A stretch of DNA of 64,000 nucleotides from Burkholderia anthina. Lineage in GTDB: Bacteria; Pseudomonadota; Gammaproteobacteria; Burkholderiales; Burkholderiaceae. Numbering within the stretch: position 1 is the stretch's first letter; every line of letters starts with the position of its first letter. The notes under the pieces were generated by a model. The model did not search any database. It was given only the letters and a program-made list of their open reading frames with translations, and was not told the origin of the DNA. The position numbers and the translations under genes are program-made. This document shows, in pieces, positions 7,154-16,853 of this stretch. Location: NCBI RefSeq assembly GCF_001547525.1, contig NZ_CM003768.1, positions 2,480,001 to 2,544,000 on the forward strand. Direction: 5' to 3'.

Positions 7154-8815
7154 ATGGATATCAAACGCACCGTCCTATGGGTGATCTTCTTCATGTCAGC
7201 TGTCATGCTGTACGACAACTGGCAGCGGGACCATGGACGCCCGTCGATGTTCTTCCCGAGCGCCACGCAGACGGCCCCGGCCGCCGCCGGCGGCGCATCG
7301 GGCACGGGCGCGACGACGACCGCAGGTGACGTGCCTGCCGCCGCGGCCGGCGCCGCACCGTCGACGACGGCCCCGGCTGCGCAGGCGCAGCTGGTGAAGT
7401 TCTCGACCGACGTGTACGACGGCGAAATCGACACGCGCGGCGGCACGCTCGCGAAGCTGACGCTGAAGAAGCAGGGCGACGGCAAGCAGCCCGACCTGTA
7501 CATCACGCTGTTCGACCACACGGCCGGCCACACGTATCTCGCACGTACGGGCCTGCTCGGCGGCGATTTCCCGAACCACAACGACGTCTACACGCAGCTG
7601 AACCCCGGCTCGACGTCGCTGACGGGCGACCAGAACACGCTGAAGCTGTCGTTCGAATCGCCGGTGAAGGGCGGCGTGAAGGTGATCAAGACCTACACGT
7701 TCACGCGCGGCAGCTACGTGATCGGCGTCGATACCAAGATCGACAACGTCGGCACGGCGCCCGTCACGCCGACGGTCTACATGGAACTGGTGCGCGACAA
7801 CACGGCCGTCGAAACGCCGATGTTCTCGCACACGTTCCTCGGGCCGGCGGTGTACACGGACGCGAAGCACTTCCAGAAGATCGACTTCAGCGACCTCGAC
7901 AAGAACAAGGCGAACTTCGAGAAGTCCGCCGACAACGGCTGGGTCGCGATGGTGCAGCACTACTTCGCGTCGGCCTGGATTCCGCAGCAGGGCGCGAAGC
8001 GCGACATCTACGCTGAAAAGATCGATCCGACGCTGTACCGCGTCGGCGTGAAGCAGCCGGTCGCCGCGATCGCGCCGGGCCAGTCGGCCGACGTGCAGGC
8101 GCGCCTGTTCGCCGGTCCGGAAGAAGAGCGCATGCTCGAAGGCATCGCGCCGGGCCTGGAGCTCGTGAAGGATTACGGCTGGGTGACGATCATCGCGAAG
8201 CCGCTGTTCTGGCTGCTCGAGAAGATCCACGGCTATGTCGGCAACTGGGGCTGGGCGATCGTGCTGCTGACGGTGCTGATCAAGGCCGTGTTCTTCCCGC
8301 TGTCGGCGGCGAGCTACAAGTCGATGGCGCGCATGAAGGAAATCACGCCGCGCATGCAGGCGCTGCGCGAACGCTTCAAGAGCGATCCGCAGAAGATGAA
8401 CGCCGCGCTGATGGAGCTGTACAAGACCGAGAAGGTCAATCCGTTCGGCGGCTGCCTGCCGGTCGTGATCCAGATCCCGGTGTTCATCTCGCTGTACTGG
8501 GTGCTGCTCGCGTCGGTCGAAATGCGCGGCGCGCCGTGGATTCTGTGGATTCACGACCTGTCGCAGCGCGATCCGTTCTTCATCCTGCCGGTGCTGATGG
8601 CCGTGTCGATGTTCGTGCAGACGAGCCTGAACCCGACGCCGCCGGACCCGGTTCAGGCGAAGATGATGAAGTTCATGCCGATCGCGTTCTCGGTGATGTT
8701 CTTCTTCTTCCCGGCCGGCCTCGTGCTGTACTACGTCGTGAACAACGTGCTGTCGATCGCGCAGCAGTACTACATCACGCGCAAGCTCGGCGGCGTGAAG
8801 AAGAAGCCGGCCTGA
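7154..8815 (+). CDS. yidC: Membrane protein insertase YidC
   Basis: YidC inserts and folds inner-membrane proteins, alone or with SecYEG. The 553-aa protein begins [19 protein letters not shown] (the Gram-negative N-terminal membrane anchor), followed by an Ala/Thr-rich linker and the large periplasmic beta-domain. The conserved five-helix core starts near [20 protein letters not shown], contains the cytoplasmic hairpin [15 protein letters not shown], and the protein ends with a basic tail, [10 protein letters not shown]. The ATG at 7154 gives the conserved N terminus. It is the last gene of the operon and ends at a bidirectional terminator. Confidence 0.98.
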
Positions 8816-8860
8816 CGCCAGTCGTACTCGCGGGCGGTCCGCCGCTCGCGATGCGCGCAA

Positions 8861-8895
8861 AAAAAGCCGCATGGTTCATGACCGTGCGGCTTTTT
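8861..8895. terminator. Bidirectional terminator, yidC / HTH gene
   Basis: AAAAAGCCGCA (8861-8871) pairs with TGCGGCTTTTT (8885-8895). With A-run and T-run on either side it can stop transcription from both yidC and the convergent HTH gene. Confidence 0.85.
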
Positions 8896-8918
8896 GCTTT
8901 TACTGGTCCGATCCCGGC

Positions 8919-9350
8919 TCAGCCCTTCTTCGATTCGCCCACGTCGCCGTAGAACTGCTCGACCAACTCCTGTACGAGGTAGCGATGATGCGGCGACAAC
9001 GCTTCGATCTTCGACGCGAGTTCGATCGTCTCGGGCGTCGGCGGATAGTGCTCGTCGCGCGGCAGCGGTTGCGGCGTCGCGTGTTCGATCACGCTTGGCG
9101 ACGGGCCGTAATGCAGCCAGTGGACTTCGACGCGCAACCAGTCGGCGAGCGTCGCGAGTTTGTCCGGCGTCGGAATCGTGCGGCCCGTCAGCCATTTGTG
9201 CGCGGTTTGCGGCGAAACGGGCTGGGCTCCGCGATGGCGCAGATTGAATCGGTTCGCCAGTTCCGTCGCGCCGGTGACCTTCTCCGGGCTGCGCCGCAGG
9301 GCGAACTTCAGGCGTTCCGAGAACGCGGCTTTTTCTTCGGGTGTCGGCAT
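8919..9350 (-). CDS. HTH transcriptional regulator (XRE/phage-repressor-like)
   Basis: This is a predicted DNA-binding regulator of 143 aa. Residues about 8-75 form a Cro/CI-like helix-turn-helix region (ALRRSPEKVTGATELANRF ... VSPQTAHKWLTGRTIPTPDKLATLADWL). The remainder is acidic, with a helical tail that may dimerise. Its target is unknown. A palindrome, AGGATA-N4-TATCCT, lies 46-61 bases upstream of its start (9396-9411) and is a natural candidate for autoregulation. It converges on yidC and is divergent from mnmE. Confidence 0.85.
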   Translation of the reverse strand: MPTPEEKAAFSERLKFALRRSPEKVTGATELANRFNLRHRGAQPVSPQTAHKWLTGRTIPTPDKLATLADWLRVEVHWLHYGPSPSVIEHATPQPLPRDEHYPPTPETIELASKIEALSPHHRYLVQELVEQFYGDVGESKKG

Positions 9351-9395
9351 GGGGGAGATTGTGCAATTCGGCCGACGTTTCTAAGACAACCATAT

Positions 9396-9411
9396 AGGAT
9401 AAACGTATCCT
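9396..9411. promoter_or_regulatory. Palindrome upstream of the HTH gene, candidate operator
   Basis: AGGATA (9396-9401) and TATCCT (9406-9411) form a perfect 6-bp inverted repeat with a 4-base spacer, in a short AT-rich stretch between divergent genes. Confidence 0.4.
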
Positions 9412-9536
9412 GTTCAGACGAATCCCGGCCTCGTACGGGCACATTGGCGGAATTGAGGGGCAAATCGTCCGCCCCCGCCAGCAGGCATACTTGTCCGAAA
9501 CGAAGAGTATGCCAGCACGGGGTACTGATACTCGAC

Positions 9537-9554
9537 TTATCCCCGTCGGGATAA
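9537..9554. promoter_or_regulatory. Second palindrome upstream of mnmE
   Basis: TTATCCC (9537-9543) and GGGATAA (9548-9554) form a perfect 7-bp inverted repeat around CGTC. It shares the TATCC/GGATA core with the palindrome at 9396 but in the opposite arrangement. The rest of the 348-base gap 9351-9698 shows nothing else I can support. Confidence 0.35.
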
Positions 9555-9698
9555 ATTCGGGCGAGTCCGAATTCGGCGTCGCGTCCGGTGGCGCGGGTGC
9601 CGACACGCTACAATGCCGGCGTTCCAACGCGCGAACTGTTGCGCCGGCGCACCGGCTACTCGCCGATTTCCCAGACTCCCCAGATTCGTCCGATTCCC

Positions 9699-11093
9699 AT
9701 GCTCGCTACCGATTCCGATCCGATCGTCGCCATTGCCACCGCCGCCGGCCGGGGCGGCATCGGCGTTGTCCGCGTGTCGTTCGGGCGCGGCGGCGAGGCG
9801 GCCGCGCTGCCGCTGATCGACGCGTTGTGCGGGCAGAAGCTCGCGCCGCGTCATGCGAGCTACGTGCCGTTTCTCGACGCGCATGGTGCGCCGCTCGACC
9901 GCGGGATCGCGCTGTATTTCCCGGCGCCGCATTCGTACACGGGCGAATACGTGCTCGAGCTGCAGGGGCACGGCGGGCCGATCGTGATGCAGTTGCTGCT
10001 GCAGCGCTGCCTGGACGCGGGGCGCGGCTTCGGGCTGCGGCTCGCGGAGCCGGGCGAGTTCACGCGACGCGCGTTCCTGAACGACAAGCTCGATCTCGCG
10101 CAGGCCGAAGCCGTCGCCGACCTGATCGAGGCGAGCACCGAGGCGGCCGCGCGCTCGGCCGGGCGTTCGCTCGACGGCGCGTTCTCGCGGCAGATCCATG
10201 CGCTCGTCGACGACGTGATCACGCTGCGGATGCTGGTCGAGGCGACGCTGGATTTTCCGGAGGAGGAAATCGACTTCCTCGAGGCGGCCGACGCGCGCGG
10301 CAAGCTCGCGAAGATCCGCGCGCAGCTCGCGCACGTGCTCGGCGATGCGCGGCAGGGCGCGTTGCTGCGCGAAGGGCTGTCGGTCGTGCTCGCGGGGCAG
10401 CCTAACGTCGGCAAGTCGTCGCTGCTGAATGCGCTGGCGGGCGCCGAGCTGGCGATCGTCACGCCGATCGCCGGCACGACGCGCGACAAGGTGGCGCAGA
10501 CGATCCAGGTCGAAGGGATTCCGCTGCACATCATCGATACGGCCGGGTTGCGCGAGACGGAGGACGAGGTCGAGCGGATCGGCATTGCGCGCACGTGGAG
10601 CGAGATCGAGCGCGCGGACGTCGTGCTGCATCTGCTCGATTCGCGCATGGGGATGACGCCGGACGACGAAACGATCGCGGCGCGGTTTCCGGCCGGCGTG
10701 CCGGTGGTGCGCGTGCTGAACAAGACGGATCTGACCGGTGTGCCCGCGTGCGTCGAGCATCCGGCGGCGGAAGGCGATCTGACCGAGGTGCATCTGTCGG
10801 CGAAGCGCGGCGACGGGATCGACATGCTGCGCGCGGAGCTGCTGCGGATCGCCGGGTGGCAGGCGGGGGCCGAGGGCGTGTATCTCGCGCGGGAGCGGCA
10901 TCTGATCGCGCTGCGGGCCGCGCAGGAACATCTCGCGCAGGCGGCCGATCATGCGGAGCAGCGCGCGCAGTCGCTCGACCTGTTTGCCGAAGAGCTTCGG
11001 CTCGCGCAGGAGCAGCTCAATGCGATTACCGGGGAGTTCACGTCGGATGATCTGCTGGGGGTGATTTTCAGCAGGTTTTGTATCGGGAAATAA
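9699..11093 (+). CDS. mnmE: tRNA uridine-5-carboxymethylaminomethyl synthesis GTPase MnmE
   Basis: MnmE acts with MnmG to modify the wobble uridine (cmnm5U) of several tRNAs. The 464-aa product has the N-terminal folate-binding domain ([16 protein letters not shown]), a helical domain, and an inserted GTPase domain with G1 GQPNVGKS, G3 DTAGLRET and G4 NKTD. It ends in the family-typical FCIGK with its essential C-terminal cysteine. The ATG at 9699 gives the conserved start MLATDSDPI; 37 upstream in-frame residues are not conserved. The 3' end of this gene is a known integration site for genomic islands in other bacteria, and accessory DNA follows it here. Confidence 0.97.
11076..11093. other. 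Possible attachment-site core at the mnmE 3' end
   Basis: The last 18 bases of mnmE, TTTTGTATCGGGAAATAA, correspond in position to the attB used by SGI1-type islands in thdF/trmE. Accessory genes begin just downstream. I did not find a second copy on the far side of the insert, so an intact attL/attR pair is not shown. Confidence 0.3.
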
Positions 11094-11563
11094 AGGCGGC
11101 ATTGTTTCAGAAGCTAAAAAAGCACTGGAGAGGCCGCCTCCCCCTGATGCCGATCGTGAAGCGTGTCCGTTTGCAGAGACACTAAAAAATATACGATTTA
11201 TGACATTTTCAGCTGCAATCGGTTGATCGCATATTACCATCATCCTTCATGAGACAAAGATCAATCTCCTGGAGGGGCATCATCCGGCCGATGCACTCGA
11301 TCTCCCTTGGCTGGCGCTACATGCGGGGCGTAGACGGCGAACATGCCTTTTCGACGAGAAGGATTTTTCTCAACATTTTTTGTTGGGTGTTGCGGAATAT
11401 GCATCAATTTCCGGTGCCGGTATATTGAGATATCCGGTGCCGATCGGACGAATACCCTGCATGCTCTTGCGATATTGAATCGATACAGTAATCCTCAAAT
11501 GACGCCATTCGTTTCGGAGTGGCGGGAATGCTCGACTTTGACGAGTTTTACTTTGAGGAAAGC
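11094..11563. other. AT-richer leader of the accessory insert
   Basis: There is no convincing gene here. It contains an inverted repeat GTGTC/GACAC (11163-11182) resembling the one at the window's left edge, and a direct repeat TCCGGTGCCG at 11410-11419 and 11433-11442, 23 bases apart, upstream of the beta-family gene. The repeats could be regulator sites or mobile-element remains. Confidence 0.4.
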
Positions 11564-12664
11564 ATGTTCGATCACAACCACTACGTTCCAGTATTGAAAT
11601 GGCGTCAGGGAGAATACCTTGCGTTGTCCAGATTGACGGCGACCGTCATGAATTGGGTAACACCGTTGTTCGAGGTGCCGACGGAGGCGTGGGACTTTGA
11701 GGCTGAAGCGCCAGCCAAGAGCCTCGACGAGCACTTGAGCAAGTTTGGCGTGCGACTCAAACAAAAATGGGACACGCGACGTTGTTTTGTCGATTCTCCC
11801 TTTATCGACGGCGACGCGTGTGTCGAGAGCGGCGCGCACCATCTGGCCCATATCTTCGACTTGGCACGGGCCGCCGGGGCCATGCCCGTCCCGGTGTTTG
11901 GGGCGGGGCGCTCCGAAGCGTATATGGCTGCTGTAAGGGCGATTGTCGATCGCGATGGACGGGGAGCCTGTCTTCGACTGACGCCGGACGACTTCGGCAT
12001 TTCGATGCGCGCGGAGGTGGATACGTTGCTGGACGCCATCGGGATAGCAGAAAGCGCGTGCGATCTCGTACTCGATTGCGCGGCCGACATCGCAACCAGC
12101 CCGAAGATGCAGGCGTTGGTGTGGAAAGGGTTGCTCGACGAGTTGCCGAAGCTCGAAGATTGGCGTTCCGTCACGATTGCCGGGACGTCATTCCCGCAGA
12201 CGTTGCCGTCGGCGTCGTATCGACCGTCCGGCCTGATCAAGCGTCATGATTGGCTTGGCTACAAATCACTTGTCGGAATGCTACCTGCCGGCACACGCGT
12301 GCCGACTTTCGGCGACTACGCCGTGGCGCATCCGGAGACCGAACTCATCGATCCACGCATGCTCGATCCGACTGCAAAGGTGAAGTACACCATCGACGAT
12401 GAGTGGTTCATCGCGATGGGTGTGCAGGTCAAGAAACATGGGCGTGCGCAGTACGCCGACATCTGCCGGAGTATTGTTTCCGCCAGGCCGCCGATCTTCA
12501 TGGGAGGCGCCTACTCACACGGTGATCAATTCATCGAGGACTGCGCGAGCGGCATTGGAAGTACCGGCGGTGCATCAACTTGGCCGATGGTGGGGAGCAA
12601 CCACCATGTCACGAAGGTTGTGAGGGATGTCGCCACCTTGTTCGGCGCTTCAACGCTTCCCTGA
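11564..12664 (+). CDS. Beta-family protein of unknown function
   Basis: This 366-aa protein has the pattern of the beta family (Pfam Beta_protein, from memory): an opening MFDHNHYVPVLKWRQGEYLAL, a middle with repeated acidic/hydrophobic segments (VDSPFIDGDACVES, LRLTPDDFGISM, CDLVLDCAADI), and a C-terminal part containing FGDYAVAHPE and SNHHVTKVVRDVATLFG. No catalytic motif is recognised; it is probably cytoplasmic, with no signal peptide. The ATG at 11564 is chosen because GAGGAAAGC precedes it ideally; an upstream GTG or ATG would add 15 or 12 residues. Relatives typically neighbour sce7726-like genes, as here, where the partner is convergent and overlaps its last 56 bases. It is AT-richer than its neighbours, suggesting transfer. 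Confidence 0.8.
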   Translation: MFDHNHYVPVLKWRQGEYLALSRLTATVMNWVTPLFEVPTEAWDFEAEAPAKSLDEHLSKFGVRLKQKWDTRRCFVDSPFIDGDACVESGAHHLAHIFDLARAAGAMPVPVFGAGRSEAYMAAVRAIVDRDGRGACLRLTPDDFGISMRAEVDTLLDAIGIAESACDLVLDCAADIATSPKMQALVWKGLLDELPKLEDWRSVTIAGTSFPQTLPSASYRPSGLIKRHDWLGYKSLVGMLPAGTRVPTFGDYAVAHPETELIDPRMLDPTAKVKYTIDDEWFIAMGVQVKKHGRAQYADICRSIVSARPPIFMGGAYSHGDQFIEDCASGIGSTGGASTWPMVGSNHHVTKVVRDVATLFGASTLP

Positions 12665-13232
12665 CCTGCGCGCGAAGCGACGAAGGGGAAAGGTGTTGCG
12701 TGAGCAGCGTATACAGCGCCCGTCTGCTGCCGCGCAGCGCCTTCCTGTCGGTTTCAAGGGCTTCCAGAATGGCCAGGGCTTCGTCGCGCCAGAGAAGGTG
12801 GGCAACATGGAACGGGGAGATGTCCGGGTTCATTGACGCGGCGCGCTCGGTCTCGATGTGAACCGCTCCGCGAGGGCCGACATGCGACACCTTGATGCCC
12901 CACCACGGTGGAAGCAGGTTCGCCGCTTCGACGAAGTGCCGTTCGCTCACGACGAGCGTCGCCTTGTCGAGCGCTCGCGAGTAGGCGTCGATCTGCAGCG
13001 GCAGACGGTGCAGTGTATCGGTATCGCTTTTGAGCTCGTAGCCGTGAATGACGCCATTGATTACCGCGATGTCGACCCTGCATGCGCCGTGCTCGAGCCC
13101 CAGCTCTTCCACGACGAGCACGTTGGGATTCGACATCGGCTCCGCAAGGACCTTTTTCATGACAGCGGTTCGAACGTCACGATCGCGTGTCGCGATACGA
13201 GGCGTTTGATTGCTGTTTGAAAATTTCACCAC
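12609..13232 (-). CDS. sce7726-family protein, PD-(D/E)XK nuclease-like
   Basis: This protein of about 207 aa looks like a member of the sce7726 family. It shows a PD-(D/E)XK-type core: RVDIAVI (Asp54), GYELK (Glu66, Lys68) and QIDAYSRALDKATLVVS (Gln80), the order expected of a restriction-endonuclease-like fold, preceded by a helical RDRDVRTAVMKKVL segment. Nuclease activity is an inference. The start is uncertain: GTG at 13232 or 13229 has AGGGGG upstream, while an ATG at 13277 would add 15 residues but has a poor ribosome site. It faces the beta-family gene tail to tail with overlapping coding sequence. The two form a probable functional module, perhaps in phage defence or mobile-element biology. 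Confidence 0.8.
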   Translation of the reverse strand: MVKFSNSNQTPRIATRDRDVRTAVMKKVLAEPMSNPNVLVVEELGLEHGACRVDIAVINGVIHGYELKSDTDTLHRLPLQIDAYSRALDKATLVVSERHFVEAANLLPPWWGIKVSHVGPRGAVHIETERAASMNPDISPFHVAHLLWRDEALAILEALETDRKALRGSRRALYTLLTQHLSPSSLRAQVREALKRRTRWRHPSQPS

Positions 13233-13378
13233 GGTGGAGGGCCCCCTGAATCGGTACGCAGCGGGGCATGTTAACACAGGCAGAGAGTGCCTTTACCCCC
13301 CACTGCCGTTAGGCCGACCCTGCGTCGACATCAAGCCCGATGACGAAGTTGGATGCCCGTCGAAGCCAGGCCGGACGT

Positions 13379-13504
13379 TCAATCCCAATGACGATGATGG
13401 TGATAATACCCACCCCCACCGTAATACCCGCCACCGTCAGGCACCACGACACAGCCGCTCAACAACACGGCGACGCCGGCAATCAGCAAAAGGGCCTTCT
13501 TCAT
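13379..13504 (-). CDS. Small Gly/Tyr/His-rich lipoprotein
   Basis: This 41-aa reading frame begins MKKALLLIAGVAVLLSGC, a complete lipoprotein signal with lipobox LSGC. The mature peptide is only about 24 residues: CVVVPDGGGYYGGGGYY followed by HHHRHWD. The Gly/Tyr run and histidine cluster suggest metal or surface binding, but no function is known to me. AGGTG stands upstream of the ATG, and a promoter with a palindromic spacer lies about 100 bases upstream. It is separate from the neighbouring accessory genes and probably belongs to the core genome. Confidence 0.75.
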   Translation of the reverse strand: MKKALLLIAGVAVLLSGCVVVPDGGGYYGGGGYYHHHRHWD

Positions 13505-13605
13505 CGCGTTCACCTGCTCGGATTCAATATGAAACCCAGCATAGCGAGCGGCTCCGGCCGAGGCTGTAAGCGATCGTATCCCCGCGCCGCAATCCGTAAC
13601 GGCGG

Positions 13606-13633
13606 ATTATTCCGGTCAAAATGACCGTAACAA
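13606..13633 (-). promoter_or_regulatory. Promoter with embedded operator for the small lipoprotein
   Basis: On the minus strand TTGTTA (13628-13633) and AATAAT (13606-13611) are 16 bases apart. The spacer contains the perfect palindrome CGGTCAAAATGACCG (13613-13627), placed where a repressor would block RNA polymerase. The start site would be near 13599. Confidence 0.5.
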
Positions 13634-13653
13634 TTAGCCAAACAGCAGACGTT

Positions 13654-15012
13654 TCAGGCGACGACGACCCGGTTTCGCCCCGTGTCCTTCGCCCGATACA
13701 GCGCGGCATCGGCGGCCTCGATCAACGCGTCGGGCGTTGACAGGTCGTCGGCCGACACGGTCGCGCAGCCGATGCTGACGCTCACGCGCCCGGCCGGCGA
13801 ATCGGGCATCGCGAGGTCGAGCCGCAATACGGCTTCGCGCGCTTCGTCGGCCACCACCCGCGCGCCGTGCGCGCCGGTATTCGGCAGTACGATCGCGAAC
13901 TCCTCGCCGCCGTAGCGCGCGACGATATCGGTGGGCCGCCGCACCGCGCCGACCAGTGCATTCGCGACGGCGATCAGGCACGCATCGCCCTTCACGTGAC
14001 CGAACGCATCGTTGTACGCCTTGAAGTGGTCGACGTCGACCATCAGCAGCGACAGCGGTTCGCCCTGCCGCCGCGCCTGCAGGAACAGCATGTGGAAATG
14101 GTCGTTGAAGTGGCTGCGGTTGAACGCACCCGTGAGCCCGTCGCGCGCGGACGAGCGAATCAGCGTCGCGTGCGCTTCGAACAGTTGCTGATACAGCATC
14201 GTCACTTCCCATGCGAGCACGCACACGAGCACGCCCGGCGTGAACATGCTGAACACGCGCGCGACATACCAGCCGAGCGTGAAGCGATGGGTGGACAGCA
14301 GGTTCAGCGTCGTATCGGTGAGGCACGCGAGCACCGCGATCGCGAGCCACAGGTCGAGCGTCGTGCGCAGCCGGCCGGTGACCAGCACGGCCACGAGCGC
14401 GAGCACGTTGAGGATCCACACGACGAGCGCGGTGCCGTTGACGGGCAGCACGGCCGCGTCGCGAGGCGGATGGAACGCGGGCGGCAGCGACACGTTCAGC
14501 GCGAGCACACACAGCAGCGCCGCCGCGACGGCCGGGCCGCCGACGAGCGCGAGCGTCCAGCGGCGTGTTTCTTTCGCGCCGACCGGCGCGCGCGTCAGCC
14601 GCTCGCGTGCGACCAGCGCGGCCATCACGAAGCACGGAAAGCCGGCATGCCAGAAGATCCACATCCATGCGGCGCTTTGCGGGCGCGCGCCGAGCAGGCC
14701 GTGGGGCGCGAACACGCCGGGAAAGGTCAGCAACTGCAGCGCGACGGCGAGCGCGGTGAACGCATAGGCGCCGCCGAGCGCACCGAGCACGGGCTGGCGC
14801 GTCACGGTGAACTGCGCGCCGAGGAAGAACGCCGCGATGCTCGCGGTCGTGAACACGGTGAGCGCGCACATCGGCATGAACGGCTCGACGGCCGGCAGCG
14901 CGACGTTCGCGTGCGGCACGGCGATCCCGAGCGTGAGCAGGATGACGAGCGCCGTCAGCGCGCCGAACCACAGCTGACGTTGCGTCGTGTGCTGGATCAG
15001 GATGCCTTCCAT
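13654..15012 (-). CDS. Membrane-bound diguanylate cyclase
   Basis: This protein is predicted to make the second messenger cyclic di-GMP from GTP. The 452 aa comprise an N-terminal sensor region with about eight hydrophobic helices (residues ~15-270, MASE4-like) and a GGDEF domain from about residue 290 (RDGLTGAFNRSHF) with active-site GGEEF. An intact inhibitory site RPTD lies five residues before it, so product feedback is expected. The ligand sensed is unknown. It is a single gene with the small lipoprotein gene downstream on the same strand. Confidence 0.9.
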   Translation of the reverse strand: MEGILIQHTTQRQLWFGALTALVILLTLGIAVPHANVALPAVEPFMPMCALTVFTTASIAAFFLGAQFTVTRQPVLGALGGAYAFTALAVALQLLTFPGVFAPHGLLGARPQSAAWMWIFWHAGFPCFVMAALVARERLTRAPVGAKETRRWTLALVGGPAVAAALLCVLALNVSLPPAFHPPRDAAVLPVNGTALVVWILNVLALVAVLVTGRLRTTLDLWLAIAVLACLTDTTLNLLSTHRFTLGWYVARVFSMFTPGVLVCVLAWEVTMLYQQLFEAHATLIRSSARDGLTGAFNRSHFNDHFHMLFLQARRQGEPLSLLMVDVDHFKAYNDAFGHVKGDACLIAVANALVGAVRRPTDIVARYGGEEFAIVLPNTGAHGARVVADEAREAVLRLDLAMPDSPAGRVSVSIGCATVSADDLSTPDALIEAADAALYRAKDTGRNRVVVA

Positions 15013-15121
15013 GGAGTCCCCCGGGCACGCGCGCGAAACGCCCGATCTTGCGCCGGGCGGCGCGCTCCCCGATCGCGGCGCGACCGGTGCGGCCCGATCC
15101 TATCGCGTTATTGGCATCCGC

Positions 15122-15370
15122 TCAAATGCCGAGCCCCGGGCCGAAGTTGCCGGCAATCCAGCGCGTGACGGCGTCGACGTCCGCGTAGTCCTGTTCGGGC
15201 AGGCCGTCGAGCATCGCCAGCACTTCGTTGCTGGCGCCGGCGTCGCGTGCGGCATCGACGATCGCATCCTTGTTCGCGGGATAGCGGACGGCCGCCAGCA
15301 CATCGGCGATCTGCAGGTCGATCGTTTCGTTCGGGATATCGTGCGGAGGAAGGGCGGGCTTGTCGTTCAC
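15122..15370 (-). CDS. DUF2795 domain protein
   Basis: This 82-aa soluble protein has one DUF2795 domain: residues about 20-75 with LAAVRYPANKDAIVDAARDAG and VDAVTRWIAGNF. The family is widespread in Proteobacteria and Actinobacteria; its function is unknown, and the fold is a small helical bundle that may bind nucleic acid. It lies on its own between the diguanylate cyclase and a 56-aa membrane protein, all on the minus strand. Confidence 0.85.
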   Translation of the reverse strand: MNDKPALPPHDIPNETIDLQIADVLAAVRYPANKDAIVDAARDAGASNEVLAMLDGLPEQDYADVDAVTRWIAGNFGPGLGI

Positions 15371-15485
15371 GTCGGTGTCTCGCGGGTGGGGCGGGAATCG
15401 GATCGAAGCGCAAGGGCCGTGCCCGCGTGTTACCCGGCCTGGGGTGGCCGGCCCTGCGCATGCGGCGGATCGACGATGATCGAAG

Positions 15486-15656
15486 TCAATGCCCGCGTCG
15501 CACGCGGCGCCACGGATGCTTCCAGTCGATGTGCGGTGCGTTCTCGTCGCGCGGATGCTGGCGACGATGCTCCTGCCAGAGTTCGTCGGAAAACAGCGCA
15601 GCCACGATGACGAGCGGCAGCACGAGGAAAATTCCGAGGATGACTTGCTCGATCAC
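15486..15656 (-). CDS. Small single-pass membrane protein (56 aa)
   Basis: The frame starts with GTG at 15656 behind a full Shine-Dalgarno sequence, AAGGAGG, five bases away. The product has one transmembrane helix (VILGIFLVLPLVIVAALF) followed by a charged, His/Arg/Trp-rich tail of about 33 residues (DELWQEHRRQ ... DWKHPWRRVRRGH), probably cytoplasmic by the positive-inside rule. No family is recognised. The strong ribosome site is the main reason to regard it as real. Confidence 0.65.
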   Translation of the reverse strand: MIEQVILGIFLVLPLVIVAALFSDELWQEHRRQHPRDENAPHIDWKHPWRRVRRGH

Positions 15657-15805
15657 GATAGCCTCCTTGCGGTGGCAGGAACCCTTGTTCCCATTCTAGG
15701 CTCTGAACTTCGCCCGCGTTCAATTTCTTACAGTGCGAAACGGGCCGGAACGCGGCCGGGCCGCAGGCATTTCGCGCATGCGGCGACATCAAAAAGGACA
15801 CCAAC

Positions 15806-16363
15806 ATGCAACTTCAGAACGATACCCACACGCTCGCGCTACGGCCGCTGGAACGCCAGGACCTGCGCTTCGTCCACGAGCTGAACAACGACGCGAAGAT
15901 CATGCGCTACTGGTTCGAGGAGCCGTACGAAACCTTCTCGGAACTGTCGCAACTGTACGACCGTCACGTGCACGATCAGCGCGAGCGCCGTTTCGTCGCG
16001 GTCGATGCGCGGGACGAACTGGTCGGCCTCGTCGAGCTGATCGAGCTCGACTACATCCACCGCCGCGGCGAGTTCCAGATCATCATCGCGCCGCAGTGCC
16101 AGGGGCGCGGCTATGCGGGCCAGGCGACGCGCCTCGCGATCGAATACGCGTTCAAGGTGCTGAACATGCGCAAGCTGTACCTGATCGTCGATACGTCGAA
16201 CGCGGCGGCGATTCACGTGTACGAGAAATGCGGATTCCAGCACGAAGCCGAATTGAAGGAAGAATTTTTCGGGAATGGCGCGTATCACAACGCTTATCGC
16301 ATGTGCATCTTCCAGCGCGATTATTTCGAGCGCCAGCAAACCGGATTGAATAATGCAGGGTAA
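15806..16363 (+). CDS. speG: Spermidine N1-acetyltransferase
   Basis: SpeG is a GNAT enzyme that acetylates spermidine and spermine with acetyl-CoA, detoxifying excess polyamine. The 185-aa product aligns along its full length with E. coli Spe[52 protein letters not shown] (acetyl-CoA loop), KLYLIVD, and [17 protein letters not shown] lies eight bases upstream of the ATG. It is monocistronic, with no polyamine genes nearby. Confidence 0.92.
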
Positions 16364-16853
16364 ACACCACACGGACGAAATGCGCTTGCGACGGGGCACC
16401 GAGCGCGCCGAATAGAGGCGGCGACCTACGGATAAATACGGATGCGCCTATATCTGGCATTTTTCTTGTATCGAGTAAAGGCGCTGCCGCGCTGCGGTAA
16501 AAGTCGAATCATTTTGGATGACTTTATGTGCAATGCATCAAAATGAGCCGAATAGCGAAATGGATTATCCAAACCGTTCAATCGTCGCATTGTAACTTCG
16601 CTGAAAGCCTTGTCGGATAACGCTTTCCGCCGGGCGGCGCGGGCCCGTCCGCGATTCGGCAGCGTTTGCCGGACGCGCGCCGCCCGCGAAAAGCGGGGCG
16701 CGCACGGGGTGCGACAATCCGCCGCTATTGCGGTCGCACAACAAATGTGCTTGCTATCGTTTGCCGGTCTTCTAAAGTGAAAAACGCGGGTTCACGATCA
16801 CCTTTAAACACATAGCTAACCCAGCCTGGTGCCCGCAAGCCTGGAGACAGAAC
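16364..16853. other. Gene-free stretch with a candidate promoter
   Basis: The 490 bases after speG hold no supported gene and are AT-rich in the first half. Near the right end, TTGCTA (16751-16756) and TAAAGT (16773-16778) with a 16-base spacer are a plausible promoter for the secreted protein gene at 16854. Confidence 0.45.

Follow-up and report, generated by a model that had tools for sequence, protein, structure and literature searches.

The gop-beta-cII locus of satellite phage P4 has been reported to confer protection from the phages lambda and P1 (Rousset et al. 2022, PMC9122126). In the passages of that paper dealing with this locus, Gop is cited as toxic in the absence of beta, and gop, beta and cII are termed non-essential for P4. 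PD-Lambda-2_C, a component that beta resembles, is described as required for PD-lambda-2 defence (Vassallo et al. 2022, PMC9519451), and a table in PMC13414232 lists the names sce7725 and sce7726 among genes that are uncharacterised. A search of titles and abstracts on sce7726, sce7725, PF14350, DUF6932 and convergent overlap yielded none about a beta/sce7726 pair, and the literature examined shows no activity for any two-gene form. In the P4 record, gop and beta are co-directional and cII converges on them, beta being entered there as a "beta family protein" and cII as an "sce7726 family protein"; when applied to P4, the PADLOC models "beta" and "cll" recognise these two proteins at 8.2e-188 and 3.2e-113, respectively.

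The locus studied here lies in a 64-kb window (the whole stretch of DNA that was analysed) of a 7.27 Mb genome in four contigs (G000). The initial annotation had described two convergent, AT-rich genes directly behind mnmE, and both were confirmed where it had placed them. The open reading frame of mnmE (9696..11093, + strand) runs to its end at 11093, and a beta gene of 366 aa (11564..12664, +) is followed by an sce7726 gene of 207 aa on the opposite strand (12609..13232, -), whose start codon is GTG at a position that is not exactly certain. The two coding sequences not only converge but also overlap in antisense by 56 nt at their 3' ends (12609..12664), a feature absent from that annotation. 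The pair has 59.9% G+C versus 66.6% in the window, a value within the lowest 5.4% of equal-sized stretches, and is separated from mnmE by a low-G+C stretch of 470 nt (11094..11563, 48.5% G+C). The best protein matches of beta and sce7726 were from Burkholderia (95% and 96%, respectively). On the other side of mnmE, between it and a yidC-like gene, a 143-aa ORF on the opposite strand (8919-9350, -) resembles by eye a helix-turn-helix regulator.

The window beta matched Pfam PF14350 (Beta_protein) with an E value of 9.5e-86 and 288.8 bits against a gathering score of 27, so that its membership of the beta family, as originally read, stands; it also matched the PADLOC beta model (6.5e-9) and phrog_9159, and structure prediction gave a TIM barrel. 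The sce7726 protein matched NCBIfam NF033832 (E 3.7e-46, 157.3 bits; NCBI cut-off 70), the PADLOC cll model (8.1e-24) and phrog_984. Its predicted fold is PD-(D/E)XK, the outcome for which the initial annotation had proposed to look, and the D...ExK...Q motif noticed there could be extended to E43, D54, E66, K68 and Q80, each kept in 94/94 aligned pair members and forming an intact E..D..ExK..Q series in the window. On the basis of fold and residues, sce7726 is predicted to be competent as a nuclease.

The two genes are thus relatives of P4 beta and cII, and in P4 the homologues stand in the same convergent order, with the catalytic residues of cII present. However, 27 nt separate beta and cII in P4 instead of the 56-nt overlap of the window, P4 cII is longer (264 aa) with an extended C-terminus that lacks R-x-x-W-R and, unlike P4, the window has no recognisable gop. 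The gop model PDLC03001, which recognised P4 Gop at 4.8e-70, gave no match in the whole genome carrying the window or in 14 control genomes. Neither gop nor any other third gene was recognisable in 11094-11563, although a Gop too diverged for recognition may lie there; the 84-aa ORF that precedes beta has a highest 19-residue hydropathy of 1.39 and is not found in the related genome G034, which carries a different ORF of 59 aa at that place. With regard to PD-lambda-2, the window beta matched component C (PDLC03984, 2.1e-49), but the HigB-like A and Xre-peptidase B genes that precede it in that system appear to be missing from the window: mnmE and beta are only 470 nt apart, and XRE/M78 and DUF6932 profiles gave no match within 8001-16500. 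Conversely, the Burkholderia betas found beside a strong PD-Lambda-2_B match (genomes G023 and G033) have no adjoining sce7726, as is also the case in G110 and G224. In G110, beta-family genes occur in tandem (three matches representing at least two genes, L263-L265) in a genome with no sce7726 match. The layout of a type II toxin-antitoxin operon was also considered and rejected, as it consists of co-directional genes and those of the window converge.

To place the locus in the chromosome, we compared 30 mnmE loci with 1.5 kb of flank each, including those of G000 and G034; mnmE itself was present in 65/65 genomes of the genus. Homology to the sequence from 13379 onward began 82-373 nt after mnmE in 6/30 and 848-1461 nt after it in four others, and in the remaining 18 it was not found within the 1.5 kb. 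In 20 longer stretches (18 of those 30 genomes plus two more) the distance between mnmE and the flank also varied, two of them (L157 and L161) having no flank within 8 kb. The 3' side of mnmE is therefore a variable slot, which in the window corresponds to 11094..13378. The cargo seen in this slot elsewhere (L143-L162) includes a 124-aa ORF plus a DUF6402 gene (405 aa), a 978-aa ORF and, in L157, a tyrosine integrase gene adjoining mnmE, with a like-sized gene in L161. In the window, the pair is alone in the slot, with mnmE on one side and a diguanylate-cyclase-like gene on the other. Its surroundings yielded no defence genes, so that the defence-island location for which the initial annotation had suggested looking was not seen. 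When G000 and G034 were aligned, 11459-13281 aligned and 11094-11458 did not. Outside the overlap, synonymous divergence from G034 was about 0.93 for both genes and 0.30 for mnmE, hence the cassette looks older than its mnmE neighbour or acquired apart from it, and the dN/dS values (0.072 for beta and 0.055 for sce7726) indicate that both genes have been kept functional by purifying selection.

We then determined how constantly the two genes go together. A beta-alignment scan of genome contigs provided the best 80 of 115 confirmed loci and the same scan of viral contigs provided 5, which together with 14 other loci and the window made a set of 100; since the scan patterns select this clade, the pairing counts apply to it. 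A convergent sce7726 faced beta in 94/100 loci, including 79/80 of the genome loci (best 80 of 115, found from beta) and 5/5 viral contigs, the exceptions being four betas without sce7726 (L063, L018, L019 and L056) and two loci where beta is missing (L005 and L021). Starting from sce7726, a scan of viral contigs yielded 16 + 80 loci, with some contigs represented twice, and 90/96 had a convergent beta, four had none and two ended at a contig edge; among distinct sequences, 52/58 viral sce7726 were paired with beta, at a spacing more variable than in genome loci. The origins in the beta tree name 13 phyla or candidate phyla, with many MAGs, and the pairwise distances of beta and sce7726 were correlated (r 0.775; largest of 2000 permutations, 0.257). 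When 229 genomes were drawn evenly from the class, pairs proved rare, beta and sce7726 being present in five genomes each and both in three (P 0.0014 for co-occurrence without the genome of the window), so that either gene occurs in only 5/229; 14 control genomes had no match to either family. In the genus sample, beta was present in 4/65 genomes and sce7726 in 7/65, and only G034 shares a window-type pair, also behind mnmE and 89% (beta) and 88% (sce7726) identical, while G061 carries an sce7726 with a diverged convergent beta (L020). The recurrent pairing put forward in the initial annotation is thus borne out. It could be argued that these are two unrelated cargo genes ending face to face by chance, as both travel on mobile DNA. 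Nevertheless, the pairing found from either gene, the co-occurrence in the class sample and a small yardstick counted by eye over 49 kb of the E. coli K-12 genome, where 0/9 convergent neighbours overlap, make this extremely improbable, and for this clade the pairing counts rule it out.

The surroundings of the pair divide the family into two forms. DUF6932 and XRE/M78 genes lie upstream of beta in 61/85 loci, namely 60/80 genome loci (best 80 of 115) and 1/5 viral loci; one further locus, truncated at the end of its contig, has an XRE/M78 gene, and 23 have neither. The names of these partners come from scans of examples, in which two XRE/M78 genes from paired loci matched PD-Lambda-2_B and three genes matched DUF6932. 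The resulting four-gene cassette (DUF6932, XRE/M78 regulator, beta and convergent sce7726; L071-L138, e.g. L054:3339-6642) therefore has the convergent pair and overlap phase of the window plus two extra genes upstream of beta. It matches PD-Lambda-2_B and _C, but its first gene is DUF6932, not recognised as HigB-like and showing by eye a nucleotidyltransferase-like motif. We know of no name for this cassette. In the beta tree, which comprised 62 sequences, the four-gene loci fell in one branch of 45 rows with the labels of three rows corrected, and the 17 outer rows, including the window, were two-gene loci; the window thus represents the minimal form, with two genes. Of the 96 viral loci, two were matched by the XRE/M78 profile and none by DUF6932 or by P4 Gop (this last query being a single sequence that misses distant relatives), and no upstream gene recurred in the 67 distinct loci without DUF6932, XRE/M78 or Gop partners. 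A role of beta and sce7726 in the biology of the phages themselves, be it DNA handling by temperate phages or superinfection exclusion, with the chromosomal copies as remnants, would fit this scarcity of partners, the presence of the pair in 90 viral loci and the fact that P4 is itself a satellite phage. We consider it very unlikely, however, as most genome loci carry what looks like a cassette of their own, purifying selection acts on the copy in the window and the three P4 genes are termed non-essential for P4 in the passages of PMC9122126 on this locus.

Not every sce7726 is accompanied by beta. The initial annotation had linked the pair to the sce7725/sce7726 naming, a link that did not hold for the first gene: the sce7725 model (NF033831) was not among the NCBIfam matches of the window beta up to E 10. 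Where beta was lacking, sce7725 was found nearby on the same strand in 4/4 cases in the genus and 2/2 in the class (L013, L014, L015, L016, L266 and L267), one of the two class cases being interrupted by a stop. These loci (NF033831/NF033832) resemble the window in having an sce7726-family nuclease beside a partner with colinear motifs in common with beta (Y-P..RQ-E, P-x-EP, GFGDY and HH), and differ in that their genes are co-directional instead of convergent and their nucleases have a longer C-terminus without R-x-x-W-R. sce7725 is thus a different partner, which is likely remotely related to beta. The profiles used detected neither beta nor sce7725 in the four viral sce7726 loci without beta or in Myxococcus phage Mx4 (L005:5013-5582), the latter having an sce7726 with the short, locked C-terminus, which looks like partner loss.

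The overlap itself was strikingly regular. In the window, codon position 1 lies opposite position 1 and position 3 opposite position 2, and the double-coded core (12605..12644) encodes HVTKVVRDVA... of beta on the + strand and ...R197xxW200R201 of sce7726 on the - strand, with 26 nt between the codons of beta H348 (12605-12607) and sce7726 W200 (12633-12635). Overlap length was 2 mod 3 in 92/94 pairs, or 63/65 when dereplicated at 80% beta identity, and the H348-W200 spacing was exactly 26 nt in 91/94, even though the overlaps span 14-110 nt; that is, the stop codons shift and the spacing holds. At 19 loci, from Burkholderia, Stenotrophomonas, Melainabacteria, Elusimicrobiota, Chloroflexota, Actinomycetota, a coliphage and a mycobacteriophage, the same DNA encodes an HxTKVVxDLA-like motif on one strand and an LRxxVRxxLKxRxxWR-like motif on the other. 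Distant members depart from the register. Among the 52 distinct viral pairs, 47 kept the 2 mod 3 phase, and the spacing was 26 in 29, 65 in 15 and other in eight. The 65-nt group (within L183-L248) appears as a second fixed register, as if one lineage had re-set the overlap once. Further exceptions are G061 (4 nt) and L140 (spacing 68), and overlaps of 0 nt and 35 nt (2 mod 3) were observed in G226 and G243, respectively. Both phase and spacing are explained by a single ancestral overlap passed down through the whole clade, and the conserved convergence may reflect only the difficulty of separating overlapping genes. Whether the overlap means anything beyond that is, in our judgement, evenly balanced: it may be a frozen accident, one ancestral event kept because indels hit two proteins and devoid of regulatory meaning. 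Common descent would by itself produce a fixed phase and spacing, the overlap showed no consistent hairpin (mean z -0.55, with 9/65 under -2), and P4 and some phages have no overlap or another spacing. Such an accident still requires that both genes be jointly useful throughout, and the stop codons moved while the register did not. It is, moreover, compatible with the reading that we prefer.

That reading, to which we give a modest preference, is a two-gene and likely anti-phage module with a PD-(D/E)XK nuclease as effector, a TIM-barrel protein as guard and antisense-locked 3' ends. The sce7726/cII-family nuclease would be the DNA-cutting effector, and the beta-family barrel would guard it and release it upon infection, so that incoming phage DNA would be cut or the infected cell killed through its own DNA. 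For this, beta and sce7726 would have to touch, with beta sensing or restraining. The guard role is inferred from the reported action of P4 beta against Gop and from the need of PD-lambda-2 for a beta-like protein; on the other hand, as the toxic P4 gene opposed by beta is gop and not cII, beta need not touch the nuclease. The overlap may serve joint inheritance, since the genes converge and overlap and loss of either by recombination would injure the other, and perhaps also matched dosage, as each transcript probably extends into the antisense of the other gene's end. Against a locked pair are the 23/52 distinct viral pairs with a spacing other than 26 and the unlocked genes of P4, G061 and G226. 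With regard to the original interpretation, its recurrence, predicted nuclease fold and a plausible defence role were upheld; the link of beta to sce7725 was not, and no defence island was seen.

Alternatively, the pair could be an addiction module, with sce7726 as the toxic nuclease and beta as the antitoxin, stabilising the prophages, plasmids or islands that carry it with no specific anti-phage role. That the pair occurs on phages and plasmids as well as in a variable slot of the chromosome agrees with this, and the fixed overlap would hinder single-gene loss. Nevertheless, convergent separate transcripts are unusual for toxin-antitoxin pairs, and the literature examined reports no toxicity of cII or sce7726. 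P4 beta is described as opposing Gop toxicity in the passages of PMC9122126 on that locus, but the nearest tested relatives are, in the corresponding parts of PMC9122126 and PMC9519451, anti-phage, and we thus regard an addiction module as distinctly unlikely. We also entertain, as a speculative and rather unlikely extension of the preferred reading, that this is an immune module with nuclease and guard written on opposite strands, whose ancestral overlap, held in register from Burkholderia to Chloroflexota, Melainabacteria and coliphage, is itself selected: it would bind the genes into one inherited unit, the complementary mRNA 3' ends would set the ratio of the products, and a phage that disturbs transcription would free the nuclease. 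Under this extension, beta and sce7726 would be a common core to which different lineages have added gop, or DUF6932 plus an XRE/M78 regulator.

The convergent pairing counts, the fixed overlap phase with its 26-nt spacing, the distinction between two-gene and four-gene forms and the presence of sce7725 next to the genus and class sce7726 genes that lack beta are new here. These results tie P4 gop-beta-cII, PD-lambda-2 and likely the sce7725/sce7726 naming to one protein-family pair. Most of the pairs in the viral contigs examined had neither gop nor PD-lambda-2-like partners detectable by the queries used, and a detection rule requiring gop or PD-lambda-2 A/B would miss the two-gene pair. It is unusual for a coding overlap to keep one antisense register at loci from 13 phyla, and this would make the family a test case for functional antisense overlap in an immune module.
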